Part shown: positions 8,726 through 23,379 of the stretch, in pieces
Layout of the letters: each line of letters opens with the position of its first letter
Position numbering within the stretch: position 1 is the stretch's first letter
Assembly (NCBI GenBank): GCA_902794095.1
Contig: CADBFZ010000002.1
Coordinates: 1-64,000, forward strand
Reading direction: 5' to 3'
DNA length: 64,000 nucleotides
Source of the DNA: an uncultured Lachnospiraceae bacterium
GTDB lineage: Bacteria; Bacillota; Clostridia; Lachnospirales; Lachnospiraceae
Notes under the pieces: model-generated
Database searches by the model: none
What the model was told of the DNA's origin: nothing
The model's input: only the letters and a program-made list of their open reading frames with translations
Program-made: the position numbers and the translations under genes

Positions 8726-9931
8726 ATGAAATTCGAAATCAATCTTGCAATTAAAAATATAACGGGTCATTCGGGAAGAAGTATTGCACTTATTCTTCTG
8801 GCAGCACTTTTATCGGGATCTGTATTTGGAGGATCTCTTATCGTTAAAAGTCTGAAGAACGGGTTGAGCAGTTATGAAGACAGACTCGGTGCGGATATTA
8901 TAGTCGCTTCTGAAGAAGCTTTAAGCGACGGAAAATTCGAGTCGATTCTTTTACAGGGTGTTCCGGGATACTTCTATATGGATGACTCCGTAATAGAAAT
9001 TGTTAAGGACATCGAAGGAGTTGAGATTGTCACACCGCAGTTTTATCTCGCTTCTGCATCTGCAGGCTGCTGCGATACTTTGGTTCAGATAATCGGATTT
9101 GATCCTGAAGATGATTTTACCATACAGCCGTGGATTAGAGACTGCTACGGACAAACGGTCAACGACGGTGACGTAATTGTCGGATGCAATATCAATATTC
9201 CCGACAGCAACAGATACAGATTCTACAATGTCGATTGTAATGTTGTTGCGAAGCTCGATAAGACAGGAACAGGTCTTGACAGCGCGGTTTATGCCAACAT
9301 GAACACGATCAAAATGATGATGGAAAATTCCGAGCAGATCGGATTCGGATATTTTGATGAAGTAGAACCCGAACATGCAGTGTCATCACTTATGGTCAAA
9401 GTAAAAGACGGATACAGTGTTACGGATGTACAAAGAGCAATCAACCTTAAACTGACGGATGCCAAAGCAGTTTCATCCAAGGATATGATCTCGGGTATCT
9501 CGGAAGGACTTGGAACAATTTCCGGAATCATCGGACTTCTTGTAATTGTGATCTGGGTGTTTTCTTTTACGATTCTGATAGTTGCGTTTGCGATGATAGT
9601 GAACGAAAGAGTAAAGGAACTTGCTGTCCTTAGAATCTCAGGCGCGAGTAAGAAGATGATATCTGAAATTCTGATAAGCGAGTCGGTATTGATGAGTTTG
9701 ATAGGAGGATTATCCGGTAATGCTTTGGCTGCACTTGTAATATTTCCTTTTGCAGACTCACTTAAGATTTCTCTAAACCTTCCGGTTCTTCTTCCGGGTA
9801 GCTTATATATCACCTTCCTGTTTCTTGGCACATTTGTAACGTCAATTCTGGTATGCGGAATAACTTCTGCACTCTGTGCATATCGCATCACAGGTAAAGA
9901 TACAGGTCTGATCTTTAGAGATGGAGCATGA
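8726..9931 (+). CDS. ABC transporter permease, FtsX/MacB type
   Basis: 401 residues: one N-terminal helix (about 17-40), a large extracytoplasmic MacB-like domain (about 40-265), then three helices with the FtsX block (VNERVKELAVLRISGASKKMI, near 292). An AGCCD dicysteine is present in the outer domain. This type usually works as a dimer with a MacB/LolD-like ATPase to move lipoproteins, peptides or metals across or out of the membrane by mechanotransmission. It lies between DUF4418 and the ATPase, in the same operon. Confidence 0.85.
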   Translation: MKFEINLAIKNITGHSGRSIALILLAALLSGSVFGGSLIVKSLKNGLSSYEDRLGADIIVASEEALSDGKFESILLQGVPGYFYMDDSVIEIVKDIEGVEIVTPQFYLASASAGCCDTLVQIIGFDPEDDFTIQPWIRDCYGQTVNDGDVIVGCNINIPDSNRYRFYNVDCNVVAKLDKTGTGLDSAVYANMNTIKMMMENSEQIGFGYFDEVEPEHAVSSLMVKVKDGYSVTDVQRAINLKLTDAKAVSSKDMISGISEGLGTISGIIGLLVIVIWVFSFTILIVAFAMIVNERVKELAVLRISGASKKMISEILISESVLMSLIGGLSGNALAALVIFPFADSLKISLNLPVLLPGSLYITFLFLGTFVTSILVCGITSALCAYRITGKDTGLIFRDGA

Positions 9932-9932
9932 T

Positions 9933-10592
9933 ATGAAACTTATTGCTGACAAAGTGGGATATCAATATTTCAGAAAAGATAAGAAACTATTATTCGAGCT
10001 TCAGGAAACAAGCTTTGAGGCGAAAGAGGGAAAGATAACAGAGATAGTAGGTCATTCCGGCAGCGGAAAAAGTACTCTGCTCAATATCTGTGCCGGACTT
10101 CTTACTCCAAGTTCCGGAAAGATTATTGCCGGTGATACAAGTCTGTATGATCTATCCGATGAAGCAAGAAGCAAATTCAGAAATAAAAACATCGGAATTA
10201 TTCCACAGGGACAATCTGTTCTGAAACATCTTACCGTCACTGAAAATATTTTGCTCCCGGTTTCTATGTACGGCATTGAATATTCTGTCGAACTCCTGGA
10301 TGAACTAATCGAAAAACTTGGATTAAAAAAACTTGCAGGCGAATCTGCGGGAGGATTATCCGGAGGAGAGATGCGAAGAGTGGCAATAGCAAGAGCTCTT
10401 GTCGGTAAACCTGAAATTATTCTGGCAGACGAGCCTACCGGAGATCTCGATTCCGATAACAGAAAACTTGTTTTGACATCTCTTAAAGAGATTGCAGATG
10501 CAGGTGCTGCTGTGCTCATGGTTACACATGATAAAGAAGCAGAAGAATACGCAGATGAAATACTGAGAATGGATGGCGGAAGATTGATATAA
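9933..10592 (+). CDS. ABC transporter ATP-binding protein, LolD/MacB type
   Basis: 219 residues with Walker A GHSGSGKST (about 36-44), signature LSGGEMRR, Walker B ILADEPTGDLDS and the H-loop VTHD. It powers the FtsX-type permease immediately upstream. The ATG at 9933 is preferred because GGAGC lies six bases before it; an in-frame ATG at 9921 would lie inside the permease gene with no ribosome site. No terminator is evident after it. Confidence 0.9.
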   Translation: MKLIADKVGYQYFRKDKKLLFELQETSFEAKEGKITEIVGHSGSGKSTLLNICAGLLTPSSGKIIAGDTSLYDLSDEARSKFRNKNIGIIPQGQSVLKHLTVTENILLPVSMYGIEYSVELLDELIEKLGLKKLAGESAGGLSGGEMRRVAIARALVGKPEIILADEPTGDLDSDNRKLVLTSLKEIADAGAAVLMVTHDKEAEEYADEILRMDGGRLI

Positions 10593-10820
10593 AGAAAATC
10601 TATAGCAAGCAATAGGCAAGAGGTATTAGCCATGCTATACACAACATGATAATTTATCTATCAAGTTAGTAAACAGTTTTTTGAGCAAGGAATTAGAAAC
10701 ATGATCCATTATAAACAATCATCCGGAGGTTCTCCGCACTGTTGATGCCGGTACATAAAAATCACATTGATACCCTAAACAGTAATTTAAAAATGATCAT
10801 ATGATCAGGAGGACTAAATA
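10593..10820 (+). other. Leader region before the desulfinase genes
   Basis: 228 bases without a gene. It holds a small CGGAG/CTCCG hairpin at about 10724-10737, a TTGATA at 10767-10772 that could be a -35 box though no good -10 follows, and a perfect 14-base palindrome TGATCATATGATCA at 10794-10807 directly before the AGGAGG ribosome site. No S-box, T-box or cobalamin riboswitch was recognised. Confidence 0.4.
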
Positions 10821-11831
10821 ATGGCTAAAGAATTTAATTACACAATTTGCCCCGTGGCTAATGCATCATACATCGCAGCTAATCATGGATTTCTTAAAGA
10901 AAGACTCGAGAAGATCGGATACACTCCGATAAAGCTCCAGACACTTGAGAAAGAACATTGGGTAGAGCACTTTACTTACACGAATGACAGACTCTTCCGC
11001 GAGGGCGGTAACACTCCTCCCATTTGGGCTAAGTCAAGAGGAGCAGAGCCCGTGCTGATCGGACTTAACCTTATTCCCGGACAGCAGGCAATACTTGTTC
11101 GTAAAGATTCAGATATTCAGACCGTTGCAGATCTTAAGGGTAAGAAAGTAGGAGTCCCTGACAGAATAAATGTAACTATCGATCATCAGAAATCTGCTAC
11201 TCTCGAAGGCTTTGAAAATGCTCTTAAGTCTGCAGGCTTGAAGAACGATGATGTTGAATGGGTATTCGTAAAAGATGAAACTCCCGATTATCCTTCATCC
11301 ACACCTAACTGGACATTCAAAACCGGACTTGATTTCGAAGCTCTTGATGAGGGAAAGGTTGATGCGGTATTCATAAAGCTTTCTGCATCCGAAAGAGTTC
11401 TTGAATCCGGAAAGTACAGAAAGATCATCAACATCGTAGCAGATCAGAACACTGTCGATCCCGTGAATAACGAATGGCCCAATGTCCTGACCGTAAGCAG
11501 AAAGCTTGCAGAGGAAGAACCTGAAGTGGTTGTTGAATATCTTAAAGCAACAATTCTTGCCGCAAGATGGGCAATTGATCACAAGGATGAAGCAGAACAG
11601 CTTCTTGCCGAACAGACTCACGGAACTGTTGAACAGTATCGCAGAGCATATCCCGAAGATTTTTATAAGCATCTTGAGCCCAACTTTTCCGAGGAAGGAC
11701 TTAAATCTCTTCAGACAAGAGCGCAGTTCCTTTATGATCACGGCTTTACCGATAAGGTAGTGGATGTTTATTCTTGGGCAGACAAGAGCTTCCTTGAAAG
11801 AGCTCTTAAGGAACTTGGAGAGGAGGCATAA
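10821..11831 (+). CDS. DszB-like sulfinate desulfinase, copy 1
   Basis: 336 residues with the periplasmic-binding-protein fold of the SsuA/TauA group, yet without a signal peptide, so cytoplasmic. The N-terminus YTICPVANA matches the DszB active-site segment (SNCPVPNA in Rhodococcus), placing the nucleophile at Cys10. His50 in EHFTY and Arg60 in REGGNTPP match DszB His60 and Arg70, with the same 10-residue spacing. DszB cleaves the C-S bond of an aryl sulfinate and releases sulfite. I infer a desulfinase acting on an unknown sulfinate. It lies 2 bases from a paralogue and upstream of a sulfonate-type importer. A cytoplasmic binding protein without catalysis is the alternative. Confidence 0.78.
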   Translation: MAKEFNYTICPVANASYIAANHGFLKERLEKIGYTPIKLQTLEKEHWVEHFTYTNDRLFREGGNTPPIWAKSRGAEPVLIGLNLIPGQQAILVRKDSDIQTVADLKGKKVGVPDRINVTIDHQKSATLEGFENALKSAGLKNDDVEWVFVKDETPDYPSSTPNWTFKTGLDFEALDEGKVDAVFIKLSASERVLESGKYRKIINIVADQNTVDPVNNEWPNVLTVSRKLAEEEPEVVVEYLKATILAARWAIDHKDEAEQLLAEQTHGTVEQYRRAYPEDFYKHLEPNFSEEGLKSLQTRAQFLYDHGFTDKVVDVYSWADKSFLERALKELGEEA

Positions 11832-11833
11832 AG

Positions 11834-12862
11834 ATGGCAGATAAGAAAATCTATTACACAATATGCCCCGTTGCGAATGCAACATATATCGCAGCAAATC
11901 ACGGCTTTCTTAAAGAGGAGCTCGCAAAGATCGGTTACGATCCCATAAAGCTTCAGACGCTGGATCAAAAAGAGTGGTCAGCTCATTTTACATTCCATAA
12001 TGACAGGCTTTTCAGAGAGGGTGGTAACATTCCTCCTCTTTGGACCAAGTCAAACGGAACCGGTGTAGTACTTCTGGCCGTTAATCTCATTGATGCATAT
12101 CAGCCGATTCTTGTAAGGGAAGATTCAGATATTAATTCTGTAGCAGATCTTAAGGGCAAAAAAGTAGCAGTCCCCGTTCATACAGGTGTTCATATTGACT
12201 TCCATAAAGCAACAACCGAGCATGGCTTTGAATCAGCTTTGGAATTGAACGGAATTTCTAAAGATGAAGTTGAGTGGGTTGAAGTTATCAATGACGAAGG
12301 ATATCACTCCGACAAAGGACTTCCCGGAACAAAATCCATTGCTTCTTCAGAAATCAAAGCACTTGCAAGCGGTGAAATCGATGCAATTTTCGCTAAGGAA
12401 GATGACATAAGAAAGGTAGAGCCCGGACTTAAAGTTAAAGTCATCTATGATGTATGGAAACAATCCGGATATGTACCTCCCGTAAACAACATTTATCCTA
12501 ATGTACTTACGGTAAGTGAAAAGCTTGCCAAGGAAGAGCCTGAGGTTGTCATTGCATTTCTTAAGGCTACGATAATCGCAGCAAGATGGGCAAAGGACCA
12601 TAAGGATGAAGCAGAACAGCTTCTTGCAGAGCAGACATACAGCACAGTAGAAGAATACAGAGCTACGCATCCTGCAGATTTTTATACCAGACTTGAACCT
12701 AATCTGGATCCCGAAGCTCTTGATGCATTACAGATTCAATCGGATTTTCTTCTTGATCACGGTTATCTTGCAAAGCCGGTTAATGTTTCGGAATGGGTTG
12801 ATTCATCATTCCTTACCAAAGCAATCAGTGAACTTGATATCGAGAATAAGCAGGCCGTTTGA
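11834..12862 (+). CDS. DszB-like sulfinate desulfinase, copy 2
   Basis: 342 residues, clearly paralogous to the preceding gene over its whole length (CPVANA, ANHGFLKE, KIGY-PIKLQTL, DRLFREGG, PNVLTVS-KLA-EEPEVV, ARWA-DHKDEAEQLLAEQT all shared). The DszB triad is kept as Cys11, His51 and Arg61. There is no signal peptide. The two copies differ most in the middle (about 105-210), which forms the substrate pocket in this fold, so they may have different substrates or form a heteromer. The ATG is preceded by GGAGAGGAGG-like sequence and starts 2 bases after copy 1. Confidence 0.78.
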   Translation: MADKKIYYTICPVANATYIAANHGFLKEELAKIGYDPIKLQTLDQKEWSAHFTFHNDRLFREGGNIPPLWTKSNGTGVVLLAVNLIDAYQPILVREDSDINSVADLKGKKVAVPVHTGVHIDFHKATTEHGFESALELNGISKDEVEWVEVINDEGYHSDKGLPGTKSIASSEIKALASGEIDAIFAKEDDIRKVEPGLKVKVIYDVWKQSGYVPPVNNIYPNVLTVSEKLAKEEPEVVIAFLKATIIAARWAKDHKDEAEQLLAEQTYSTVEEYRATHPADFYTRLEPNLDPEALDALQIQSDFLLDHGYLAKPVNVSEWVDSSFLTKAISELDIENKQAV

Positions 12863-12926
12863 TAAACACCTCTTAAGAGCGTGGGGAGAATTTCTATATA
12901 AGTAATAAAGAATGAGGAGAAATATT

Positions 12927-14081
12927 ATGAAGAAAAACAGTTTAGTAACAAAGTTGGCAGCACTGGGACTTTCGGCTGCACTCGGACTTGCAGGATGCGG
13001 AGGACAATCCGGTAATGGTGGTCAGAATTCAGAGGTATCAGATGTAGCGATTACCGCGGAAGAGGAGGCACTTGCCAAGGAGCTCCTTGACAGAAACGTT
13101 ACCGCAAATGATGTCATCACCGTAGGTGTTATCGAATCTGCAATCGCACAGCTTAAGGAAAAGTATGATTTTGAGGAACTTGATGATCTTAAGATTGGTT
13201 CCGGCGGATGGGTTTATCTCTCCGATAAATACGGTTGGTTCACCGAGCTTCTCGGCGACAACAATACTAAGGTAAGCATTGTTGAAGGTGCTGTCGGAAA
13301 TGAGGTTCAGCTCATGGAGAGAAATGAACTTCACCTTATGAACCGTATGCTTTATCCCTATCTTCTCTACAGAGCACAGGGTGGTGATATTACAGCGGTT
13401 GAACTTTCCGAAGATCCCGCACCTGGAATTGTTACCATTCTTGTTGCTAAGGATTCTCCCTATGAGACTCTTGAGGATCTTAAGGGCGGTACCATTGCAA
13501 GCTGGAAGGCAGGATGCCAGTATGTTGCACTTATCGAGCAGACCATCGATCTCGGATGGACCGAAGGCGTAGATTGGACTTACGCAAATGTTTCAAACAA
13601 CGATATCAAGACCGCTCTTGAAGCAGGTGAAGTTGATGCAATCTCCGTTCATCCTTTCGCAAACATCAATAACGAGATCATCTCAGGTAATTTCCGTGAG
13701 ATAGCAAATGCTAAAGCAGACGGAGTATATACCAACTACGGTGGTGCATCCGTTACCTTCGCTCCTTCGGAATTTGCAGATTCACATGTAAATCTTATCA
13801 AAGCGGTTCTTAAGCTTCGTCAGCTGGTAAATGCATATATCATTCAGAATCCTGAAGAAACGGCAGCAGTACTTGAGACTATTACCAGAGAGCCTGCAGA
13901 AAATACCATTTGGTATAACAATAGAAGCGCAGAGACCTTCTATTCCGCTTCAGCCCCTCTTTCACAGCTCGTTGATGATACCGACAATTATCAGAACTGG
14001 CTCATCGAAAATACCGAAGAGTTTACTGCTGAAGGACGTGTAGATAAGGATACATTCTTTAATCCCAACTTCTTTGAGTAA
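12927..14081 (+). CDS. Lipoprotein substrate-binding protein of a sulfonate-type ABC importer
   Basis: 384 residues. A lipoprotein signal is clear: charged start, hydrophobic stretch, then LAGCGG with the lipidated Cys near residue 24. The mature part has features of the SsuA/TauA/NMT1 group (ETLEDLKGGTIASW, ALEAGEVDAISVHP). ATG 12927 is chosen over 12912 because GAGGAGA lies directly before it. It belongs with the permease and ATPase downstream; the two cytoplasmic paralogues upstream suggest that the imported ligand is an organic sulfonate or sulfinate. The exact ligand is unknown. Confidence 0.85.
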   Translation: MKKNSLVTKLAALGLSAALGLAGCGGQSGNGGQNSEVSDVAITAEEEALAKELLDRNVTANDVITVGVIESAIAQLKEKYDFEELDDLKIGSGGWVYLSDKYGWFTELLGDNNTKVSIVEGAVGNEVQLMERNELHLMNRMLYPYLLYRAQGGDITAVELSEDPAPGIVTILVAKDSPYETLEDLKGGTIASWKAGCQYVALIEQTIDLGWTEGVDWTYANVSNNDIKTALEAGEVDAISVHPFANINNEIISGNFREIANAKADGVYTNYGGASVTFAPSEFADSHVNLIKAVLKLRQLVNAYIIQNPEETAAVLETITREPAENTIWYNNRSAETFYSASAPLSQLVDDTDNYQNWLIENTEEFTAEGRVDKDTFFNPNFFE

Positions 14082-14092
14082 AAATAAAATTA

Positions 14093-14117
14093 CGGGAGAG
14101 TGCATAGCGCTCTCCCG
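14093..14117 (+). ncRNA. mRNA hairpin between binding-protein and permease genes
   Basis: An 11-base stem (14093-14103 with 14107-14117, one G-U pair) closes an ATA loop. No T-run follows, so it is more likely a processing or stability hairpin giving excess binding protein than a terminator. Confidence 0.6.
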
Positions 14118-14131
14118 GGATTGGATTAATA

Positions 14132-14983
14132 ATGGCAAAAGAGATAACTGCGGAATTACCCGTTAAGCAGAATAAAATAATCAAAAATCTTACCGGAGAC
14201 TTTAGCAGTGATAAGCTGGGACCCAGACTGGCAGCACTTATCAATACTTTGGCAGTGCCCATTCTGCTGTTGCTTCTCTGGCAGATACTTTCAGGTTCAG
14301 GGCTTTTATTGGAGGTTATACTTCCTTCGCCACTTAAAGTCGTCAAAGCACTTATCAAAATGATCTCTGACGGAACACTTGCCAAGGATCTGGCCATAAG
14401 CGGAAAAAGAGTATTTATAGGTTACCTTTGGGGAGCCGGTATTGCACTTATACTCGGTGTGGTCAGCGGTCTGAATAAGGTCGTGGAGAGGGTTGTTTCT
14501 CCCATCATCAATGTTATCAGACAGATTCCGCTCTATGCCTGGATGCCGCTTATCATACTATGGTTTGGAATCGGCGAGCTTTCCAAGGAACTTATCATCG
14601 CAAGAGGTGTACTGATCCCGATCTTTCTCAATACATTACAGGGAATCAAAGGAGTTCAGGTAGAGTATTGTGAACTTGCTGAGGTACTGGAACTTAAAAG
14701 AGGCATTTTCTTAAGAAAGATCGTACTTCCTTCGGCGGTATCATCAATTTTCACCGGCTTACGACTGGGTGCCGGAAATGCATGGATGGCAGTTGTTGCA
14801 GCCGAGATGCTCGGAGGACTTACAGGACTCGGATATGCTCTTATGAAATCAAGAGAATTCCTGTGGTCCGATAATCTGATAGCTCTCATGGTCGTGATCG
14901 GCGTTATCGGTGTGGCTATAGATGTCATACTTCGTAAGATTGAACAAAGATCCCTGAAATGGAAGAGAAAGACCGTCAAGTAA
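14132..14983 (+). CDS. ABC transporter permease, SsuC/TauC type
   Basis: 283 residues with about six membrane helices. The EAA loop is seen around residue 180-200 (LAEVLELKRGIFLRKIVLPSAVSSIFTGLRLG), which contacts the ATPase, and the IPLYAWMPLIILWFGIGELSK segment is typical of nitrate/sulfonate/taurine permeases. It forms the membrane channel for the binding protein at 12927 with the ATPase at 15010. A weak ribosome site and the hairpin upstream suggest lower expression than the binding protein. Confidence 0.9.
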   Translation: MAKEITAELPVKQNKIIKNLTGDFSSDKLGPRLAALINTLAVPILLLLLWQILSGSGLLLEVILPSPLKVVKALIKMISDGTLAKDLAISGKRVFIGYLWGAGIALILGVVSGLNKVVERVVSPIINVIRQIPLYAWMPLIILWFGIGELSKELIIARGVLIPIFLNTLQGIKGVQVEYCELAEVLELKRGIFLRKIVLPSAVSSIFTGLRLGAGNAWMAVVAAEMLGGLTGLGYALMKSREFLWSDNLIALMVVIGVIGVAIDVILRKIEQRSLKWKRKTVK

Positions 14984-15009
14984 ACAATAGGTATCAGGCA
15001 GGTGTAATT

Positions 15010-15774
15010 ATGAGCGAAAACAACATTTTGGAAATAAAAAACGTCTCCAAGGTATTTCACACTCCCGATAAGGACGTAGAGGCTATCCGAAAGGTAGATC
15101 TTAATGTTAAAGAGGGTGAGTTCATATCCATAATCGGTGCCAGCGGATGCGGAAAGACCACTTTGCTCAGACTGATCGCCGGACTTGAGAAAAACTACGG
15201 CGGAGATATCCTTCTTGACGGGAAGAGAGTTGAGAAGGCAGGTCTTGACAGAGGAGTGATCTTTCAGGATCACAGGCTTTTGCCCTGGCTTACCGTTGAA
15301 GATAATCTTACATTGGGACTCGAAGGCTCTAAGGAAGAGCTCAGAGAACTTGTTAATACCTATCTGAAGAAGGTTGATCTTGAGAATTTTGAAAAGGTAT
15401 ATCCCGGACAGCTATCCGGTGGTATGGCACAGCGTGTTTCAATCGCAAGAGCTCTTATGAGACATCCGAGAATACTCCTTCTTGATGAACCTCTCGGTGC
15501 GCTCGATGCTCTTACCAAGATGAATATGCAGACAGAGATAGGTAAGATTTGGGAAGAGGAAAAGACCACAATGATCATGGTCACCCATGATATTGATGAG
15601 GCTATTTTCCTCGGAGATAAGGTTGTAGTTATGAGACCGAGGCCTGCGGAGGTCGATCAGGTTATCGATATCGAGATTCCAAGACCCAGGCTCAGAAGCG
15701 GTGAGGATTTCGCTTACTACAGAAATCTTATAATTAATTACTTTAATCACAGTATTCTGGATTATGTGATCTGA
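15010..15774 (+). CDS. ABC transporter ATP-binding protein, SsuB/TauB type
   Basis: 254 residues. Walker A is GASGCGKTT (about 44-52), signature LSGGMAQR, Walker [13 protein letters not shown] and H-loop VTHD, with the DEPLGALD form typical of nitrate/sulfonate/taurine importers. ATG 15010 gives the normal family N-terminus; an in-frame ATG at 14959 lies within the permease gene. It is the last gene of the desulfinase-importer operon, followed by a strong terminator. Confidence 0.92.
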
Positions 15775-15785
15775 TGTGAAGATTA

Positions 15786-15816
15786 AAGAGAAATCCCAAA
15801 CGGATTTCTCTTTTTT
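15786..15816 (+). terminator. Intrinsic terminator of the desulfinase-importer operon
   Basis: AAGAGAAATCC (15786-15796) pairs with GGATTTCTCTT (15802-15812) over CAAAC, continuing into TTTTTT. Confidence 0.93.
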
Positions 15817-15854
15817 ATCAGATATAGTCAAAACCTATAACCTGTTCTTTGTTT

Positions 15855-15899
15855 TAGGTATTTCCAATAATTTACGGATTTACCTATACTGTCTATATT
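15855..15899 (+). promoter_or_regulatory. Promoter with inverted repeat upstream of metY
   Basis: TTTACG (15871-15876) and TATATT (15894-15899) are 17 bases apart. TAGGTATTTCC (15855-15865) and GGATTTACCTA (15876-15886) form an imperfect inverted repeat (9 of 11 positions) across the -35 and spacer. A repressor bound there, such as a cysteine- or Fe-S-sensing Rrf2 protein, would block transcription; that identity is inference. Confidence 0.5.
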
Positions 15900-15949
15900 G
15901 ATACAGATCATCGGACCAAATTGTTAATATATAAGAGGCAAGAGCGCAG

Positions 15950-17191
15950 ATGAATTTCAATACAGCACTTCTCCACGGCGGAGTTGATAAAAAAGAAAAA
16001 TACGGATCAACCTTGACTCCGATTTATCAGACCAGTGCATTCTACCAGCAAAGCGCTGAGGATCTTGAGGGGATTTTCTCTAACAAGACACCGGGTTACT
16101 GTTATACCAGAGTTGCAAACCCCACGGTTACGGCTTTTGAAAACCGTATCACCAAGCTTGAAGGTGGTGTGGGAAGCGTGGCAACATCATCCGGAATGTC
16201 CGCGATCTTCTGTGCACTGACCAATATCTTAGAGAGCGGAGATGAGATCGTATCAAGCTCAAGCCTCTACGGCGGCACGATTGATTTTTTCAGGGATCTG
16301 GAAGCATTTGGCATCAAGACTAACTATATCGAGAACAATAATTTCGAGCAGATAGAAAATGCGATAACCGAAAACACCAAGCTCCTCTATGCAGAGACCA
16401 TCGGAAATCCGTGCCTGGATGTTACGGATATCGATGAACTTGCTAAGATCGCACATGCACACGGCATACCTCTTATCATCGATAACACGGTGGCAACCCC
16501 GTATCTGGTCAAAGTATTTGAGCATGGCGCGGATATAGTGATTAACTCGACATCGAAGTACATAAACGGAAGCAGCAATGCAATAGGCGGAGTCCTCACG
16601 GACAGCGGAAAGTTCAAATGGAACAAAGAAAAGTTCCCCATCCTGAAGGATTACATCAAATTCGGACCTTATGCATATCTTGCAAAACTCCGTGCGGGAC
16701 TTTTCAGAAATGCCGGAGCCTGTATGGCGCCGCAAACGGCTTATTTAAATCAGATAGGATTGGAGACATTGGGACTGCGTATGGAGCGCCAATGTACGAA
16801 CGCCGGGAAGCTGGCTGAGCATCTCGAAAAGAGATACCCGAACATTATAGTCAATTATCCCGGCCTCGAATCAAGCAAGTGGCACGGCATCGGAGAGAAG
16901 CTTCTAAACGGAGGATACGGAGCGATAGTTACGATCCGTGTGGGCTCCAAAGAAAACGCATTTAAACTCCTGGATGAACTTGAACTGGCTTACAGACTTT
17001 CAAACATAGGAGATACGAAGACACTTGTGCTTCACCCCTCTTCGACAATCAGCCTTCATTCAACCAAGAAGCAAAAAGAAGACGCGGGAGTGTTCGACGA
17101 TCTGATAAGGATCAGCGTCGGAATAGAAGATATAGACGATCTTAAAGAAGATTTTGATAAAGCATTTAAGGGGATTGGCCTTGATGCGTAG
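15950..17191 (+). CDS. metY: O-acetylhomoserine sulfhydrylase (MetY-type, PLP)
   Basis: 413 residues of the Cys/Met metabolism PLP family. The PLP lysine is Lys203 in STSKYINGSS, with the family motifs YTRVANPT, ATSSGMSAI and ETIGNPCLDV. Length and the STSKY-NG context favour O-acetylhomoserine sulfhydrylase, which makes homocysteine, over cystathionine gamma-synthase. It heads an operon with a sulfite reductase, a ThiS-like carrier, its activator and a JAMM protease, as in the thiocarboxylate methionine pathway of Wolinella. In that setting the sulfur donor is a carrier thiocarboxylate rather than free sulfide. Confidence 0.9.
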   Translation: MNFNTALLHGGVDKKEKYGSTLTPIYQTSAFYQQSAEDLEGIFSNKTPGYCYTRVANPTVTAFENRITKLEGGVGSVATSSGMSAIFCALTNILESGDEIVSSSSLYGGTIDFFRDLEAFGIKTNYIENNNFEQIENAITENTKLLYAETIGNPCLDVTDIDELAKIAHAHGIPLIIDNTVATPYLVKVFEHGADIVINSTSKYINGSSNAIGGVLTDSGKFKWNKEKFPILKDYIKFGPYAYLAKLRAGLFRNAGACMAPQTAYLNQIGLETLGLRMERQCTNAGKLAEHLEKRYPNIIVNYPGLESSKWHGIGEKLLNGGYGAIVTIRVGSKENAFKLLDELELAYRLSNIGDTKTLVLHPSSTISLHSTKKQKEDAGVFDDLIRISVGIEDIDDLKEDFDKAFKGIGLDA

Positions 17192-17201
17192 GAGGAATGA
17201 A

Positions 17202-18074
17202 ATGGCAGAACAGATTGATTATTCGTCACTTAAAAAGGGCGGCTTCATGAGACAGAAGCAGAAGGGTTTCTTTTCACTCAGACTTGCGGTCGTAGGAGGA
17301 AATCTTACTGCAGAGAACATTAAGACCATCGCTGAGGTTGCTGAGAAATACGGACATGGTTATGTACACATGACCTCACGTCAGGGCGTTGAGATTCCTT
17401 TCATCAACTTCAACGATATCGAAGAGGTCAGAGCAAAACTTCTTGAGGGAGGAGTTAAACCCGGAGTTTGCGGACCCAGAGTAAGAACCGTAACAGCCTG
17501 TCAGGGCTCTGCAATATGTCCCAGCGGATGTATCGACAGCTACGAACTGGCTAAGGAATTTGATGAGAGATATTTCGGAAGAGAGCTTCCTCACAAATTC
17601 AAATTCGGCGTTACAGGATGTATGAACAACTGCCTTAAGAGCGAAGAAAACGACCTCGGAGTTAAGGGCGGATACATCATCGATTACAAGGCTGATAAGT
17701 GCATCTCCTGCGGAGTATGTATCAAGGCTTGCCGCGAAGGAGCACTTTCACTTGATGATAACGGAAAGGTCGTTCTTGATACTTCCAAATGTAACAACTG
17801 CGGACGCTGCGTAAAGAGCTGTCCCGCAGATTCCTGGGATTACGAACCCGGATACATTGTTTCCTTCGGAGGACTGTTCGGAAATCAGATCTATAAGGGT
17901 GAGCAGATCGTTCCCATCATCAAGGATAAGGAAACACTTTTCAGAGTCGCAGATGCGGCAATCGACTTTTTTGATAAACATGCAAATGCCGGAGAGAGAT
18001 TCAGAAAGACTCTTCAGAGAGTAGGAGAGGAAGAGTTTAGAAAAGAAATTCAGGCAGCATACGAAGGAAAATAA
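17202..18074 (+). CDS. Small siroheme sulfite reductase with two ferredoxin clusters
   Basis: 290 residues. An N-terminal ferredoxin-like half domain is followed by the siroheme/[4Fe-4S] ligands Cys100-x5-Cys106 and Cys140-x3-Cys144, then two [4Fe-4S] ferredoxin motifs (Cys167/170/173/177 and Cys197/200/203/207). This is the compact AsrC-like form rather than the long assimilatory CysI. It should reduce sulfite to sulfide, with electrons from ferredoxin. ATG 17202 has GGAGG six bases before it; in-frame starts at 17154 and 17184 are inside metY. It is embedded in the sulfur-carrier operon, and the siroheme enzyme at 20879 lies in the same transcript. Confidence 0.9.
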   Translation: MAEQIDYSSLKKGGFMRQKQKGFFSLRLAVVGGNLTAENIKTIAEVAEKYGHGYVHMTSRQGVEIPFINFNDIEEVRAKLLEGGVKPGVCGPRVRTVTACQGSAICPSGCIDSYELAKEFDERYFGRELPHKFKFGVTGCMNNCLKSEENDLGVKGGYIIDYKADKCISCGVCIKACREGALSLDDNGKVVLDTSKCNNCGRCVKSCPADSWDYEPGYIVSFGGLFGNQIYKGEQIVPIIKDKETLFRVADAAIDFFDKHANAGERFRKTLQRVGEEEFRKEIQAAYEGK

Positions 18075-18094
18075 AACGAAGGAAGGTGACATAT

Positions 18095-18340
18095 ATGGCA
18101 GATATAGCATTTGATGAATCGGTGGATATAACCGACAAGGTTTGCCCTTTAACTTTTGTAAAAGCCAAGGTAACACTTGATGAACTCGATGACGGACAGA
18201 TCCTTGCAATCAGAATGAACGACGGTGAGCCCGTACAGAACGTACCCCGCTCCATCAAGGACGAAGGACATCAGATTTTAAAGCTTGATGACAACGGTGA
18301 CGGAACCTACACCCTCTATGTTAAGAAGGTCGGCGACTGA
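18095..18340 (+). CDS. TusA-like sulfur-transfer protein
   Basis: 81 residues with VDITDKVCPLTFVKAKVTLDEL at the N-terminus, where Cys17 sits in the TusA/SirA/YedF CPxP-type motif (here CPLT). The fold class carries sulfur as a cysteine persulfide. The C-terminal half (SIKDEGHQIL) matches the family as well. In this operon it could accept sulfide or persulfide sulfur from the reductase step and pass it to the activated carrier; that is inference. ATG 18095 follows GGAAGGTG; an earlier ATG at 18086 overlaps this site. Confidence 0.8.
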   Translation: MADIAFDESVDITDKVCPLTFVKAKVTLDELDDGQILAIRMNDGEPVQNVPRSIKDEGHQILKLDDNGDGTYTLYVKKVGD

Positions 18341-18373
18341 TCCACACAAATACAGATTTAGGAGAATGAGGAA

Positions 18374-18580
18374 ATGATCATTACAGTAGCAGGTGAAAAG
18401 AAAGAATACAAAGACGGACTTACACTTCCCGAGCTTATTGCAGCAGAGAATGTTGAGATGCCCGAGTATGTAACCGTATCCATCAACGAGGAGTTCGTTG
18501 AAGCCGATAAGAAGGAATCTACCGTTCTTAAGGACGGAGACAATGTTGAGTTCCTTTACTTCATGGGAGGTGGATGCTGA
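18374..18580 (+). CDS. hcyS: ThiS/MoaD-like sulfur carrier, HcyS-type, with extra C-terminal residue
   Basis: 68 residues with a ubiquitin-like beta-grasp pattern (MIITVAGEKKEY, VSINEEFVEA, LKDGDNVEFLYFM). The chain ends GGGC. Active carriers must end in Gly-Gly so that the E1-like partner can adenylate the carboxylate, hence the last Cys has to be removed, presumably by the JAMM protease two genes downstream. HcyS of Wolinella likewise carries one extra residue removed by HcyD. It starts after GGAGAATGAGGAA and its stop overlaps the start of the activator gene. Confidence 0.82.
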   Translation: MIITVAGEKKEYKDGLTLPELIAAENVEMPEYVTVSINEEFVEADKKESTVLKDGDNVEFLYFMGGGC

Positions 18581-19395
18581 TGGCTCTTACAGATGAACAG
18601 CTTGAGAGATATTCCAGACATATTATTCTCAAGGAAGTAGGCGCTAAGGGACAGAAGAAGCTCCTTAACGCAAAGGTGCTTATCATCGGTGCCGGCGGAC
18701 TCGGAGCTCCCGCAGCTATGTATCTTGCGGCAGCAGGCGTAGGCCACATCGGAATCGTTGATGCTGATGCGGTCGATCTTTCAAATCTTCAGAGACAGAT
18801 TATTCATCAGACAGCAGATGTGGGCAAAGCAAAGGTTCAGTCCGCCAAGGAAACGATGAATGCGATGAATCCCGATGTCGAGGTTACCACATACAGGGAG
18901 TTCGTTTATTCTGACAACATTCAGCAGCTTATCCGCGATTATGATTTCATCATTGACGGAACAGATAACTTCCCCGCAAAGTTCCTTATCAATGATGCAT
19001 GCGTCCTTGAGAAGAAACCTTTCTCACACGCAGGTATCATCAGATTCAAGGGACAGCTCATGACATATGTTCCAGGACAGGGACCTTGCTACAGATGTGT
19101 ATTCAAGAATCCCCCTCCGAAGGATGCGGTTCCCACCTGTAAGCAGGCAGGTGTTATCGGAGCGATGGGCGGCGTGATCGGAAGCCTTCAGGCAATGGAA
19201 GCTATCAAGTACATCGTAGGAGTTGGTGATCTTCTCACCGGATATCTCCTTACATATGATGCGCTTACCATGGAGTTCCACAAGATCAAATTGCCAAAGG
19301 ATACTCATAACTGTGCTGTATGCGGAGATCATCCCACCATACTTAAGCCCATCGATTATGAACAGCCCGCTTGTGAACTCAAGTCACATGCGTAA
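18580..19395 (+). CDS. hcyF: E1-like sulfur-carrier adenylyltransferase (MoeB/ThiF/HcyF)
   Basis: 271 residues. The ATP-binding Rossmann motif GAGGLGAPAAMYLAAAGVG (about 33-51), DADAVDLSNLQRQ and the two CxxC zinc pairs (CYRC near 171, CAVC near 250) identify the MoeB/ThiF family. It adenylates the C-terminal glycine of the small carrier and helps form its thiocarboxylate. No rhodanese domain is attached. ATG 18580 overlaps the carrier stop (ATGA) with GGAGGTGG just upstream; an alternative ATG six bases earlier is less likely. Confidence 0.9.
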   Translation: MALTDEQLERYSRHIILKEVGAKGQKKLLNAKVLIIGAGGLGAPAAMYLAAAGVGHIGIVDADAVDLSNLQRQIIHQTADVGKAKVQSAKETMNAMNPDVEVTTYREFVYSDNIQQLIRDYDFIIDGTDNFPAKFLINDACVLEKKPFSHAGIIRFKGQLMTYVPGQGPCYRCVFKNPPPKDAVPTCKQAGVIGAMGGVIGSLQAMEAIKYIVGVGDLLTGYLLTYDALTMEFHKIKLPKDTHNCAVCGDHPTILKPIDYEQPACELKSHA

Positions 19396-19412
19396 CAGAT
19401 TTAGGAGACAAA

Positions 19413-19844
19413 ATGGCAATCGTAAGAATTGATTATCAATTATATGATGACATAGTTAAATACGCCAAGGAGCATTTGCCCGAAGAAGCCTGCGGTCTTA
19501 TCGCAGGTGAAGAGACAGAAGAAGGAAAGTTTGTTAAGAAGGTATACTTCCTTACAAATGTGGATCATGCCGAGGATCATTTCACTCTGGATCCCAAAGA
19601 GCAGCTTGATGCGGTAAAGGATATGAGGGCAAACTCACTTAAGCCTCTCGGAAACTGGCACTCACATCCGGAATCTCCTTCAAGACCTTCCGAAGAAGAT
19701 ATCAGACTTTCTTACGATAAGAATGCAAGCTATTTTATCCTGTCACTTATGGCGGAGAATCCTGTACTTAATTCATTTCATGTAGAGGATGGCTTGGTGA
19801 CGAAGGAAGATCTCAGGATCATATCCGAAAAATATTATTATTGA
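19413..19844 (+). CDS. hcyD: JAMM/Mec+ metalloprotease for the sulfur carrier
   Basis: 143 residues. The JAMM zinc site is complete: Glu25 and the exact HxH-x7-S-x2-D pattern at His83, His85, Ser93 and Asp96. Prokaryotic JAMM proteases of this size remove residues attached after the Gly-Gly of sulfur carriers (Mec+ acting on CysO-Cys, HcyD acting on HcyS). Its target here is most likely the GGGC end of the carrier at 18374. It is 17 bases from the E1-like gene and in the same operon. Confidence 0.88.
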   Translation: MAIVRIDYQLYDDIVKYAKEHLPEEACGLIAGEETEEGKFVKKVYFLTNVDHAEDHFTLDPKEQLDAVKDMRANSLKPLGNWHSHPESPSRPSEEDIRLSYDKNASYFILSLMAENPVLNSFHVEDGLVTKEDLRIISEKYYY

Positions 19845-19860
19845 AAGTGAATTTGTATTT

Positions 19861-20877
19861 ATGTTCAAAAAGAACCTTTTAAAAATATCATCCATACTCA
19901 CATCCATCTTTCTCCTGACAGGATGCGGAAGTGTAAACGTTTCAACGGATGTTAATGTTGAAACTGATATCGAAACATCTGGCGTGGAGATTAGCGCGGC
20001 AGCAGAACCTGTTCAGGAAGACGTAACAGAAGCTGAAGTTCCCGAAGAGTATGTTTTCACCGACGCTCTCGGAAGAGAAGTTACGGTAACAAGCACGGAC
20101 AATGTTGCAGTCCTTCTCGGAAGCTTCGTTGATGTATGGCAGCTAGCAGGCGGAGACGTAGATGCTGCAGTAAGTGATGCATTCGGAAATTACGATCTTG
20201 CGGAAGGAACCGTTGACCTGGGAAGAATGCTTGAGCCCAATGTGGAAGCGCTTATCGCAGCTCAGCCCGATTTTGTAATCGCAAGTGCGGGAACCGATGC
20301 TCAGGTTGAACTTCTTGATACATTTGAATCTGCGGGACTTAATGTAGCGTATTTTGAAGTATCTGACTTTAATGACTATCTTGGAATGCTTGATACTCTT
20401 ACCGATATCACCGGAAGAAAAGATCTCTATGAACAGTACGGTACTCAGATTGCAGAGCAGATAGACGAGATTAAAGCTGCAGTTCCGGACACTCACCCCA
20501 CCGTTTTGTTTATCAGAGCTGCAGCAAGTTCCGTTAAAGCAAAGGGAAGCGAAGGAACAGTGGGCGGTGAGATACTTGCAGATCTCGGATGCATCAACAT
20601 CGCAGATTCGGACAGTGCAATCCTTGATGACTTAAGCCTTGAAGCAATCGTTGCGGCAGATCCTGATTACATCTTCGTAACAACTCAGGGTGATGATAAG
20701 GAAGCAGCACTTGCAAATGTTCAAGACCTTCTCATTAATAATCCCGCTTGGTCACAGCTTTCCGCTGTACAGAACGGTCACTACTATGAGATAGAAAAAG
20801 AACTTTATAATTCCAAACCCAATGCAAGATGGGCTGAGGCTTACCGGAAACTCGCAGATATTTTGTACGGAGAATGA
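19861..20877 (+). CDS. Lipoprotein binding protein, FecB/BtuF type
   Basis: 338 residues with a lipoprotein signal (LLTGCGS, lipid Cys near residue 22), an acidic linker, and the Peripla_BP_2 layout (EYVFTDALGREVTV at the start of the domain, LEPNVEALIAAQPDFVIAS, ADPDYIFVTTQG). Such proteins bind ferric siderophores, haem or cobalamin. Together with the permease at 21480 and ATPase at 22480 it forms one importer. It sits inside the sulfur operon beside a siroheme enzyme, so iron or a tetrapyrrole is the most reasonable ligand. Confidence 0.85.
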   Translation: MFKKNLLKISSILTSIFLLTGCGSVNVSTDVNVETDIETSGVEISAAAEPVQEDVTEAEVPEEYVFTDALGREVTVTSTDNVAVLLGSFVDVWQLAGGDVDAAVSDAFGNYDLAEGTVDLGRMLEPNVEALIAAQPDFVIASAGTDAQVELLDTFESAGLNVAYFEVSDFNDYLGMLDTLTDITGRKDLYEQYGTQIAEQIDEIKAAVPDTHPTVLFIRAAASSVKAKGSEGTVGGEILADLGCINIADSDSAILDDLSLEAIVAADPDYIFVTTQGDDKEAALANVQDLLINNPAWSQLSAVQNGHYYEIEKELYNSKPNARWAEAYRKLADILYGE

Positions 20878-20878
20878 T

Positions 20879-21496
20879 ATGGCATACTTTCCGTTTTTCC
20901 ACGAACTTGATAATAAGAATATTACGATCATAGGCGGAGGAAATATCGCTCTCGAGAAAATCGAAAGACTCGCAGGCCTGGGGGCTGATATAACAGTCAT
21001 AGCTACCGAGATCAAAGATGAGATTTTTGATTTTCCGAAAGTCACCTGTATCATCAAAAGATATGCGCCGGAGGATTTATCCGGCGCTGATTTTGTAATA
21101 TCGGCTACATGCGATGAGCATGTTGATAACGAAGTCTTTGAAAGGTGCAGGGCGCAGAAGATTCCCGTCAATGTAGTCGACGTAAAGGAAAAATGCGATT
21201 TTATTTTCCCTTCGGTTATCCGTAAGAAGAATCTTGTCATCGGAGTATCAAGTTCCGGTGCTAGTCCGCAGGTGGCAATCACACTCCGTAAAGAAATCGA
21301 AAACCTGATCCCTGATAACATAGAAGATATTTTGGATTTCCTTGAAGAGATCAGACCGGTTGTTAAAAACCGCGTAGACGATCCTAAGATCAGACACAGA
21401 ATTTTGAAACGTGCCGCGGATATCTGTCTTCGTGAGAAGAGAACACTATCCGCCGGAGAATTAGAAGAGTTACTTATTAATGAAAGAGAAAGCTGA
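20879..21496 (+). CDS. Precorrin-2 dehydrogenase / sirohydrochlorin ferrochelatase (Met8/SirC type)
   Basis: 205 residues with the NAD-binding ITIIGGGNIALEKIERLAGLGADITVIA start, FVISATCDEHVDNEV, VNVVDVKEKCDFIFPS and the GVSSSGASPQVAITLRKEIE segment typical of the N-terminal part of CysG and of stand-alone SirC/Met8. It makes sirohydrochlorin and possibly siroheme, the cofactor of the sulfite reductase in this operon. It lies between the binding protein and permease genes of the FecBCD-type importer. ATG 20879 has GGAGA in front; an upstream in-frame start at 20822 would overlap the previous gene. Confidence 0.9.
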   Translation: MAYFPFFHELDNKNITIIGGGNIALEKIERLAGLGADITVIATEIKDEIFDFPKVTCIIKRYAPEDLSGADFVISATCDEHVDNEVFERCRAQKIPVNVVDVKEKCDFIFPSVIRKKNLVIGVSSSGASPQVAITLRKEIENLIPDNIEDILDFLEEIRPVVKNRVDDPKIRHRILKRAADICLREKRTLSAGELEELLINERES

Positions 21497-22487
21497 TAAG
21501 AAAATCTTATACATCACAGCGCTTTTGATAATCCTTGCGGTATCATTCGTCGTAAGCTTATCCTTCGGAAGTGTTAAGGTATCGGTCGGAGATGTTATCG
21601 GAGCATTTGTATCACCGAGCACATCACCTGTATCTACCACCATTATCAGAGACGTACGCTTTCCCAGAGTCCTTGCCGGATTTCTGGCAGGTGCAGGTCT
21701 TTCGGTTGCCGGAGTGATTCTTCAGGGTGTGATGAACAACGCCCTTGCTAGTCCCAATACCATCGGTGTTGGTTCCGGGGCGGGATTTTTCGTAATGTTA
21801 TCTCTTGCATTATTTCCCGGTAAGGTATGGCTTCAGCCTGTCTTTGCATTTGCGGGAGCACTCTTTGCAACTCTTTCCATCTTTGCACTTGCATACTTTG
21901 CAGATACTTCACGTATCACAATAATACTTGCCGGAATTACCGTTTCGAGTTTTCTCTCAGCAGGCATCAATCTCATTAAGACACTTGATACTGATATCGC
22001 ACTTAATATCAATTCATTTCTGATAGGTTCTTTATCCGGAGTTTCTCTTAAAGACATAACCATTCCCGGAATCTTCATTGCAGCGGCAGCAATTATCGCA
22101 ATCTTTCTTGCGGGAGCACTTAATATCCTGGGACTTGGTGATGATGTTGCGGCGTCTTTGGGTATGAGAGTATCATCTGTTAGATTCTTACTTATGATTG
22201 TTTCAAGTATCCTCGCAGGAAGTGTTGTAAGCTTTGCGGGAGTTCTGGGATTTGTGGGACTTATCGTTCCTCACATCTGCAGAAGGATCTTCGGAAATGA
22301 TGCTAAGATCTTAATTCCCTGCAGCATACTTTTGGGCGGAAGTTTTGTGATGATATGCGACCTTCTATCCAGAGTTTTATTTTCACCTTATGAACTTCCT
22401 ACCGGAATCATCATGTCGTTTATCGGCGGACCGTTCTTCATGTACCTCCTCATTATTAAGAAAGGAGGACGCAGGTTAAATGCTTGA
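21480..22487 (+). CDS. ABC importer permease, FecCD type
   Basis: 335 residues with about ten membrane helices. FecCD signatures are clear: RFPRVLAGFLAGAGLSVAGVILQGVMNNALASPNTIGVGSGAG near residues 60-100 and FVGLIVPHICRRIFG near 255. It is the channel for the binding protein at 19861. The start overlaps the end of the siroheme gene by 17 bases, showing tight coupling between tetrapyrrole synthesis and this transporter. Confidence 0.92.
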   Translation: MKEKADKKILYITALLIILAVSFVVSLSFGSVKVSVGDVIGAFVSPSTSPVSTTIIRDVRFPRVLAGFLAGAGLSVAGVILQGVMNNALASPNTIGVGSGAGFFVMLSLALFPGKVWLQPVFAFAGALFATLSIFALAYFADTSRITIILAGITVSSFLSAGINLIKTLDTDIALNINSFLIGSLSGVSLKDITIPGIFIAAAAIIAIFLAGALNILGLGDDVAASLGMRVSSVRFLLMIVSSILAGSVVSFAGVLGFVGLIVPHICRRIFGNDAKILIPCSILLGGSFVMICDLLSRVLFSPYELPTGIIMSFIGGPFFMYLLIIKKGGRRLNA

Positions 22488-23238
22488 GTTTAAAAATGTC
22501 AGCGTGGTCAAAAATGGAACCGCGCTTTTGAAAGATATCAATTTAAGTATTGAAACAGGGAAGCTCACTGTTTTCATAGGTCCCAATGCCTGCGGTAAGA
22601 CAACGCTTCTGCAGACGCTAAACGGAAGCAGTAAAGTATCGAAGGGAAGTATCACATTAAACGGAGAAGACTACCTTGCACTTCCTCCAAAAGAAAGAGC
22701 TAAGAAGTTATCCTTCCTTCCACAGGTTCATTCTGTGATCCCTGCAATACCTGTCAGGACACTTGTTTCCCACGGACGCTTTCCCTACCTTGGTTTTTCC
22801 AGAAGATCCGGAGATGATGATAAGCATATAGTTAATGAAGCAATGTCGAAAGCAGGCGTCGATGAATATTCGGGAGAGGGCGTAGATACATTGTCCGGCG
22901 GCGTCCGTCAGAGAGCATTCATTGCTATGCAGCTTGCCCAGCAAAGTGATTTTATTATAGCCGACGAACCCACAACCTATCTCGATCTTCCAAGTAAGAA
23001 AATGATCGTAGAGATCTATTCCGGACTTCGTGATGAAGGTAAGACCGTAGTCCTGGTTCTTCATGAACTGTCCACCGCCCTTGAGATTGCAGACCGGATC
23101 GTAGTCATGGGCGATCGTAAGATCGTATCAACCGGCACACCCGAAGAAATCATCTCAAGCGGAATTATAGAGTCCGTTTTCGGTGCCACAGTCAAAAAGT
23201 TCTCCGACGAAACCGGGGAATATATAGTCGTAATGTAA
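22480..23238 (+). CDS. ABC importer ATP-binding protein, FecE/BtuD type
   Basis: 252 residues. Walker A is GPNACGKTT (about 35-43; an Ala replaces the more common Gly), followed by signature LSGGVRQRAFIAMQLAQ, Walker B FIIADEPTTYLD and H-loop VLHE. The DEPTTYLDL form is typical of iron-siderophore and cobalamin importers. Its start overlaps the permease stop by 8 bases behind AAAGGAGG. It is the last gene of the sulfur-carrier operon. Confidence 0.92.
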   Translation: MLEFKNVSVVKNGTALLKDINLSIETGKLTVFIGPNACGKTTLLQTLNGSSKVSKGSITLNGEDYLALPPKERAKKLSFLPQVHSVIPAIPVRTLVSHGRFPYLGFSRRSGDDDKHIVNEAMSKAGVDEYSGEGVDTLSGGVRQRAFIAMQLAQQSDFIIADEPTTYLDLPSKKMIVEIYSGLRDEGKTVVLVLHELSTALEIADRIVVMGDRKIVSTGTPEEIISSGIIESVFGATVKKFSDETGEYIVVM

Positions 23239-23272
23239 TGCGTCAGGGGGCACGGACCCTTGGCGCATTTAA
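23238..23272 (+). terminator. Weak terminator-like hairpin after the sulfur operon
   Basis: Imperfect arms at 23238-23249 and 23257-23268 (both begin or end with ATGCG/CGCAT) are followed by only a short T-rich stretch. It could end the 7.3 kb transcript from 15.9 kb, but inefficiently. Confidence 0.45.
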
Positions 23273-23379
23273 TCGTTTAAGTCAAAAAATGGGACAATAT
23301 CAACAATTTCTTGGAAGTATTCTTGTAATCTCTGCTCTATTATCATATCTGTTGAAAATTTTTGGAGATCAAACAGATT

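Follow-up and report, generated by a model that had tools for sequence, protein, structure and literature searches.

A DszB-type putative desulfinase cassette before a protein-thiocarboxylate homocysteine core in part of one Lachnospiraceae genus

Why genes resembling that of DszB, an enzyme type described to our knowledge only from aerobic desulfurisation, should stand before a homocysteine synthesis cluster in an uncultured rumen Lachnospiraceae bacterium is the question raised by positions 8299-23238 of the window, the 64,000-nucleotide stretch of DNA analysed here (positions 1 to 64,000, forward strand, of contig CADBFZ010000002.1, assembly GCA_902794095.1). An earlier note on this DNA had proposed that imported sulfinate is converted to sulfite, sulfide, a carrier thiocarboxylate and finally homocysteine. 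The locus is here read, with a probability of roughly 0.62, as a system for scavenging organosulfur whose front end can be exchanged, and in which sulfinate desulfination would give sulfite and, by way of it, homocysteine. Gene content, active-site conservation, the fold of DszB1, linkage, cassette exchange and the lack of a match to sulfate-activation families were computed, and from these we infer every catalytic step, the substrate and export.

Domain calls were made by Pfam and NCBIfam profile searches of the window proteins, supplemented for the DszB-like pair by a PDB sequence search. DszB searches covered 299 genomes of the family (E up to 1e-10), 391 of the class (E up to 1e-25) and 31 of the genus; genomes and loci are denoted by G and L numbers, respectively. 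The window genome, G000, is 80% complete, and absences in it are provisional. Two adjoining genes encode the DszB-like pair:

10821..11831, + strand: DszB1, DszB-like putative desulfinase (2DE2 E 9.9e-21; AlphaFold2 model; active site kept)
11834..12862, + strand: DszB2, paralog of DszB1 with 56% identity (2DE2 E 1.1e-24; active site kept)

DszB (2DE2) was the best match of both proteins in the PDB sequence search, with SsuA (2X26) far behind (9.4e-6 for DszB1 and 0.0027 for DszB2), and a profile built from nine relatives matched DszB with an E value of 2.9e-29. Fold evidence concerns DszB1 alone: with an AlphaFold model made from a nine-row alignment (mean pLDDT 78; below 50 at residues 116-119, 153-167 and 207-218), Foldseek returned 2DE2 first (E 3.5e-22, TM 0.76, 25% identity), with SsuA as the next different protein (1.8e-17). 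An excerpt of a 2025 paper (PMC12168087) gives the DszB active site as Cys27, His60, Arg70 and Gly73, with His60 and Arg70 anchoring the SO2 group. These residues were aligned by HMMER with C10, H50, R60 and G63 of DszB1, and all four were identical in 16 of 16 aligned DszB-like proteins, nine of them from anaerobes and seven plasmid-borne (Rhizobium, Mesorhizobium, Sinorhizobium, Variovorax and Streptomyces; 26-33% identity). The three binding proteins in the same alignment had neither the His nor the Arg; the aligned Cys was present in two, where it was taken as that of the lipobox, and the Gly in one. By eye, the four residues were also found in G683, in G699 and in the divergent DszB types of G685 and G693. 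No signal peptide was seen by eye at the N-terminus of either protein, and dN/dS against locus L008 was about 0.06 for both genes. Assignment of both genes to DszB-type proteins, as putative desulfinases, is thereby supported at the level of sequence, and the identity proposed in the earlier note stood in sequence and active site for the two proteins and in fold for DszB1. A weak Usp match in DszB1 (25.2 bits, cut-off 24) was set aside.

Downstream of the pair and of the importer genes given further below lies the homocysteine core:

15950..17191, + strand: MetY, O-acetylhomoserine sulfhydrylase (PF01053 1.6e-116; TIGR01326 3.3e-136, 454 bits, below the cut-off of 495)
17184..18074, start maybe 17202, + strand: compact siroheme sulfite reductase with ferredoxin clusters (PF01077 2.2e-30, PF03460, Fer4)
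18086..18340, start maybe 18095, + strand: TusA-like sulfur relay protein (PF01206 9.5e-19)
18374..18580, + strand: HcyS, ThiS-like carrier with C-terminal GGGC (TIGR01683 1.5e-16, above cut-off)
18574..19395, + strand: HcyF, E1-like adenylating enzyme of MoeB/ThiF type without rhodanese domain (PF00899 2.1e-89, the sole domain above cut-off)
19413..19844, + strand: HcyD, JAMM protease, Prok-JAB (PF14464 1.2e-23)
19861..20877, + strand: FecB-like binding lipoprotein (PF01497 9.6e-32)
20822..21496, start probably 20879, + strand: precorrin-2 dehydrogenase of CysG N-terminal type, CysG-N (TIGR01470 4.9e-41, above cut-off)
21480..22487, + strand: FecCD-type permease (PF01032 8.8e-88)
22480..23238, + strand: FecE-type ATPase (NF008409 5.1e-66, below cut-off)

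All genes named in the earlier note were found at their places as open reading frames on the + strand between 10821 and 23238, in the expected families. Its identification of a MetY-Hcy set was supported as well: MetY, the ThiS-like carrier, the E1-like enzyme and the JAMM protease lie in one cluster, kept in 12 of the 14 loci with the reductase that were found in the genus. The same 12 share the order MetY-sulfite reductase-TusA-HcyS-HcyF-HcyD-FecB-CysG-N, with the reductase placed between MetY and the TusA-HcyS-HcyF-HcyD genes; FecC and FecE come after CysG-N, inverted in G680, G696 and G697, and the G683 stretch ends inside FecC. The other two loci (G685 and G698) have a different order and a MetY only 50% identical. 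The HcyS tail is GGG plus one residue in 14 of 14 (C in seven, Q in five, R in two) and the JAMM motif HxHPx6SxxD is unbroken in 12 of 12, which would fit a need for HcyD to trim the HcyS tail first; in the protein-thiocarboxylate methionine pathway of Wolinella, a protease reportedly removes the last residue of the carrier first. The CP motif of TusA is kept in all 15 rows, from 14 genomes. In the excerpt of Iyer et al. 2006 (PMC1779556), the core appears as row 4e, including SirA/TusA and an E1 without rhodanese domain. G697 (L059:14500-15369) and G696 (L060 13603-14478, reverse complement) have the compact sulfite reductase twice, the additional copy, with about 70% identity to the window's, lying 3' of HcyD.

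Within the genus, a DszB-like gene was found in 8 of the 31 genomes and the sulfite reductase in 14. All eight genomes with DszB carry the reductase, and DszB was found in none of the 17 without a reductase match (hypergeometric 0.0004, kinship ignored); among the ten genomes at least 90% complete, DszB is present in one and the reductase in four. No DszB-like match was obtained in the other 298 Lachnospiraceae genomes or the other 390 class genomes sampled. Within this sample the system is limited to some members of a single genus, and the co-occurrence of desulfinase-like and MetY-Hcy genes that the earlier note wished to see across Lachnospiraceae was found within the genus (8 of 8, with the reductase) and not across the family. 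The separate inheritance of the gene pairs that, by the earlier note, would have refuted its reading was thus not seen within the genus. The DszB1 type occurs in seven genomes (G000, G683, G687, G693, G699, G702 and G703, the gene of G702 being cut by contig ends), three of which (G000, G687 and G693) have DszB2 as well; G685 has a divergent DszB type only, and G693 a divergent copy in addition. In the seven, DszB1-SsuABC precedes MetY and the core on the same strand; SsuB and MetY are separated by other genes in four of them (G683, G687, G693 and G702). With cassette and core joined in seven genomes on one strand and with low dN/dS, the linkage of DszB to the core exceeds chance. A scan of named genome contigs gave five loci, L008, L009 and L012 in Lachnospiraceae metagenome-assembled genomes (MAGs) with the same cluster and L010 and L011 in Gracilibacteraceae MAGs; the first three correspond to G693, G687 and G703, all in the window's genus, and two of these MAGs are labelled as from yak and roe deer rumen.

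The core is preceded by different front ends in different genomes. At the 14 reductase loci, DszB1-SsuABC was found in seven, a divergent DszB in one, an arylsulfotransferase-like set in four, a sulfate module in one and nothing recognisable in one (G698). The sulfate module, in G686 (L058:547-9962), comprises SsuABC-like genes, an alkylsulfatase-like protein, a DUF1254/DUF1214 protein, AprBA and CysDN; AprA scored 898 bits (cut-off 557) and CysD 513 bits (cut-off 413), the AprB-like ferredoxin was below cut-off, and CysN was present. CysDN and AprBA together convert sulfate to sulfite, and the module is, judged by its gene content, a probable route from alkyl sulfate to sulfite. When G693 and G685 are counted as DszB, at least four front-end changes are required on a tree built from four core proteins, in which the deep forks lack support. 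The tree pairs G703 (DszB) with G686 (sulfate) at support 81/79. The two share ten colinear genes upstream at 88-100% identity and six genes downstream at 93-99%, and those core proteins that were compared show 87-99% identity, with FecB at the bottom of the range; between the flanks and MetY they differ throughout, a 430-codon opposite-strand frame in the slot of G703 having no match in the G686 stretches. G000 (DszB) and G692 (arylsulfotransferase) are sisters with support 100/98, sharing upstream genes (100, 80 and 86%) and the downstream MBL-YczE-GH9 genes (76, 88 and 79%); a 583-residue gene at the upstream edge is found in G692 and G693 and not in G000, and a helix-turn-helix gene of G692 is not in the window. 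In G693 both cassettes stand in tandem at the same place. The slot before MetY is most likely one of sulfite supply, and the DszB cassette most likely supplies sulfite too, because the sulfate route of G686 yields sulfite and the cores behind both are nearly alike. Nothing else in the data speaks as strongly for sulfite as the common intermediate as this exchange, which the earlier note overlooked; with so clean a replacement before one conserved core, closely related sister strains are also expected to use different sources of sulfur.

In G685 (L034 5368-13130, reverse complement), the genes immediately preceding the reductase encode a divergent DszB, an amino-acid-type ABC importer and an amidohydrolase resembling Xaa-Pro dipeptidase, and a variant radical-SAM protein is also encoded before the reductase; from the type of importer, the substrate may be an amino-acid-like sulfinate. 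In G680, G692, G696 and G697, and in G693 besides DszB, an arylsulfotransferase-like protein (family PF05935, checked for L008 and L059) is encoded together with a second ABC system, the whole forming a second, unexplained organosulfur module. Its arylsulfotransferase-like genes lie at L008:17082-18599, L057:8512-10023, L059:8172-9668, L060:7390-8886 and L061:8182-9681 (L057, L060 and L061 on the reverse complement); no signal peptide is evident by eye in the protein, and its gene is accompanied by those of an SsuABC-like importer and, at three of the loci, of a thioredoxin-like protein.

As to other sulfur sources of the host, assimilatory sulfate reduction (ATP sulfurylase and adenylylsulfate (APS) or phosphoadenylylsulfate (PAPS) reductase) was not found in the window genome with PF01507 (CysD and CysH) and PF01747 (Sat), neither of which had a match there; AprA was not searched. 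PF01077 (NIR_SIR) had exactly one match in that genome, the window reductase. PF00296 (luciferase-type monooxygenase) had none, the DszC-type family not being searched. The link to flavin monooxygenases known from the 4S pathway was thus not found in the host genome, which bears on the pathway and not on the enzyme family.

Importer genes lie between the DszB-like pair and MetY, and a further gene set precedes the pair:

12912..14081, + strand: SsuA-like binding lipoprotein (PF09084 7.4e-7; TIGR01728 2.7e-20, below cut-off; lipobox by eye)
14132..14983, + strand: SsuC/TauC-like permease (PF00528 3.8e-24; nearest NCBIfam models SaoP, SsuC and TauC, all below cut-off)
14959..15774, + strand: SsuB/TauB-like ATPase (PF00005 1.4e-34; NCBIfam matches below cut-off)
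8299..8718, + strand: DUF4418 membrane protein (Pfam PF14387 6e-29)
8726..9931, + strand: FtsX-like permease of a putative exporter (PF02687 1.2e-13; syntenic in L008, L009, L012, L032 and L036)
9921..10592, + strand: putative exporter ATPase of LolD/MacB type (TIGR02211 4.4e-50, below cut-off; syntenic)

The names SsuA, SsuB and SsuC denote the nearest models, and the family does not reveal which compound is transported, because all three score below the NCBIfam cut-offs. The NCBIfam names SaoP and SaoA for permease and ATPase were rejected, their scores being far below cut-off. The DUF4418-FtsX-ATPase set (8299-10592), which the earlier note had overlooked, accompanies the cassette in six of the seven genomes of DszB1 type; it adjoins DszB in G000, G687, G693 and G703, sits between SsuB and MetY in G683 and G702, and is missing from G699, where DszB is present. 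Close DUF4418 homologs were found in the genus in those six genomes only, at the locus (G679 has a 30% match), that is, in 6 of 7 DszB1 genomes versus 0 of 24 others (hypergeometric 9.5e-6, kinship ignored). The set and DszB-SsuABC are both present in G000 and G693 and both absent in G692. Our guess is that the set might export the desulfinated product.

The proposed route would run as follows. The SsuABC-type importer would take up an organosulfur acid, most likely a sulfinate, and the two cytosolic DszB-type desulfinases would cleave its C-S bond without oxygen, His and Arg holding the SO2 group, the conserved Cys doing the chemistry and sulfite being freed. The single siroheme reductase would reduce sulfite to sulfide, whose sulfur TusA may relay. 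HcyD would remove the last residue of HcyS (GGG-C) and HcyF adenylate the exposed glycine, so that the HcyS thiocarboxylate could form, from which MetY would transfer the sulfur to O-acetylhomoserine to give homocysteine. CysG-N, with iron from the Fec system, would support siroheme, and the DUF4418-FtsX-ATPase set would perhaps expel the desulfinated product. The chain proposed in the earlier note is borne out as far as the DszB-type proteins, the MetY-Hcy set and their joining go, and its reactions are predicted.

DszB relatives were also sought in other settings. By tblastn of plasmids, 114 records with such relatives were obtained, and in all six plasmid regions examined of these 114 a flavin monooxygenase of LLM or NtaA/DmoA kind or an acyl-CoA-dehydrogenase-family gene was located within about 8 kb. 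Such a gene is directly adjacent in four (H1, H4, H8 and H20), which are rhizobial with common neighbours and not independent. Such neighbourhoods are what a 4S-like pathway would look like. In the excerpt of PMC3868597, bdsA of Gordonia, encoding a desulfinase, has locus tags consecutive with those of sulfonate-type ABC transporter genes; this pairing of desulfinase and importer is kept in the window, in a genome without a PF00296 match at 80% completeness. The Gracilibacteraceae loci (L010:3513-9957 and L011:7469-13938) hold a DszB relative about 41-44% identical, next to MtaA/CmuA-like methyltransferases, a corrinoid protein, a CobW-like GTPase and a RACo-type activator (families tested for L010; L011 assigned by like order and sequence). 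The relative was found in 2 of 25 Gracilibacteraceae genomes searched, those of L010 and L011, both of which carry dsrAB, and desulfination may be tied there to methyl transfer and to the respiration of sulfite. A broader picture is doubtful: an oxygen-independent, DszB-related class of C-S cleaving enzymes would release sulfite from organosulfur acids that are common in the diet, sulfonates possibly among them, and a DUF4418 exporter dedicated to the task would dispose of the remainder; the enzyme would feed methionine synthesis in Lachnospiraceae of the rumen and, in Gracilibacteraceae, perhaps sulfite respiration.

Several points weigh against sulfinate desulfination feeding homocysteine synthesis. 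The substrates known for DszB are aryl sulfinates, which oxygenases produce in the 4S pathway, and no anaerobic sulfinate source was identified; identity to DszB is only about 25%, and the profile scores of the importer do not allow a substrate to be assigned. At six of the 14 reductase loci the front end is of a different kind or none is visible (four arylsulfotransferase-like, one sulfate, one none). The arylsulfotransferase-like module, which outnumbers the sulfate module among the genomes, has no obvious sulfite product, and just one swap goes to a route that plainly yields sulfite. The genomes are incomplete, which leaves the sulfur-gene absences provisional, and in that of the window the search for sulfate activation did not extend to AprA. 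In two Gracilibacteraceae genomes the neighbours of the relative are corrinoid methyltransferase genes, and the role of the family may accordingly vary.

A rival reading is that of an oxygen-independent desulfonase, with the DszB-like proteins cutting sulfonates (C-SO3-) or another C-S bond and still giving sulfite. The adjoining importer is nearest to sulfonate-type models, below cut-off, and sulfonates are commoner than sulfinates in the rumen; the lack of a luciferase-type monooxygenase match in the host genome fits as well, as does the wording of the Gordonia desulfinase step as hydrolysis of sulfinate or sulfonate in the PMC3868597 excerpt. Simple sulfonate hydrolysis, however, would give sulfate, which the window genome seems unable to activate, and the unchanged DszB active-site residues argue for the same chemistry; this alternative is held to be unlikely. 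It is still less probable that the pair is non-catalytic, consisting of cytosolic organosulfur-binding proteins or sensors evolved from SsuA, with sulfite itself imported. The main Pfam match of both proteins is indeed just the NMT1/SsuA fold, in which many proteins only bind ligands, but the Cys, His, Arg and Gly are invariant across the 16 proteins down to about 26% identity, the best match is DszB and not SsuA, and the cassette is swapped with an enzymatic, sulfite-making one. That last exchange, in which one partner is a sulfate route, likewise speaks against a cassette serving the carbon part of the substrate or detoxification, with sulfite as a by-product that the reductase merely disposes of. 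Such a role would agree with the putative exporter accompanying the cassette and with the Gracilibacteraceae relative standing among corrinoid methyltransferase genes in genomes with dsrAB; yet no carbon-catabolic gene was recognised in the window's cassette, the reductase lies amid the MetY and Hcy genes in the 12 loci of common order, and we give this role an equally slim chance.

Sulfinate desulfination joined to homocysteine synthesis was further compared with known systems. With DszB of the aerobic 4S pathway (2'-hydroxybiphenyl-2-sulfinate desulfinase) and BdsA of Gordonia, the window proteins have in common the fold (for DszB1), the four active-site residues and the lack of a visible signal peptide, and with BdsA also SsuABC-type importer genes nearby. 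They differ from DszB in the low identity given above, in a presumed anaerobic host without a luciferase-type (DszA-like) monooxygenase match and in being two paralogs. MetY, the ThiS-like carrier, the E1-like enzyme and the JAMM protease are common to the Wolinella pathway, which differs in that sulfite here apparently comes from a desulfinase cassette. Relative to the core list in the excerpt of Iyer et al. (PMC1779556), the window adds DszB, the DUF4418 exporter, CysG-N and Fec, and its genome has no match to the families of PAPS reductase and ATP sulfurylase. The core (described in 2006) and DszB are already known; what is new is that a desulfinase, with no oxygenases found, forms an exchangeable cassette linked to methionine synthesis by way of a protein thiocarboxylate. 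This combination was not found in open-access literature on DszB or desulfinase in anaerobes, gut or rumen, and on HcyS, among the matches listed and as judged by title and start of abstract. A sulfite route described for the rumen, in an excerpt of PMC13219744, uses the sulfite-lyases IslAB and HpsGH. The presence of a DszB active site in Lachnospiraceae of the rumen, together with the lack of a luciferase-type monooxygenase match, suggests a natural substrate under anaerobic conditions and an additional origin of sulfite in the rumen.

The two adjacent operons of the earlier note are corrected in two respects: the unit may begin at 8299 rather than 10821, because the DUF4418-FtsX-ATPase set goes with the cassette, and whether there are one or two operons varies among relatives. 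The gap between SsuB and MetY is 11 bases in G699 and about 175 bases in the window, and in L009 (G687) a 508-codon opposite-strand frame lies between them. An Rfam search of 7500-24500 gave no match at the gathering score, and scans for promoters (36 versus 30.8 in shuffled sequence, sd 5.6) and terminators (13 versus 13.1) remained at about the shuffled level. A palindrome-like block TATAG...TATA 5' of DszB1 and MetY, drawn from alignments of four relatives, was rejected, the pattern having one window match versus a shuffled mean of 1.9. Just 5' of the DUF4418 gene, at 8162-8190, a terminator-like hairpin of 12 pairs fits a cassette start there, terminator-like sites overall being at the shuffled level. 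The hexamer NGTATT, missing in G699, where MetY almost abuts SsuB, and counted without a background test, was observed 65-120 bases 5' of MetY in 11 of the 12 loci scanned.

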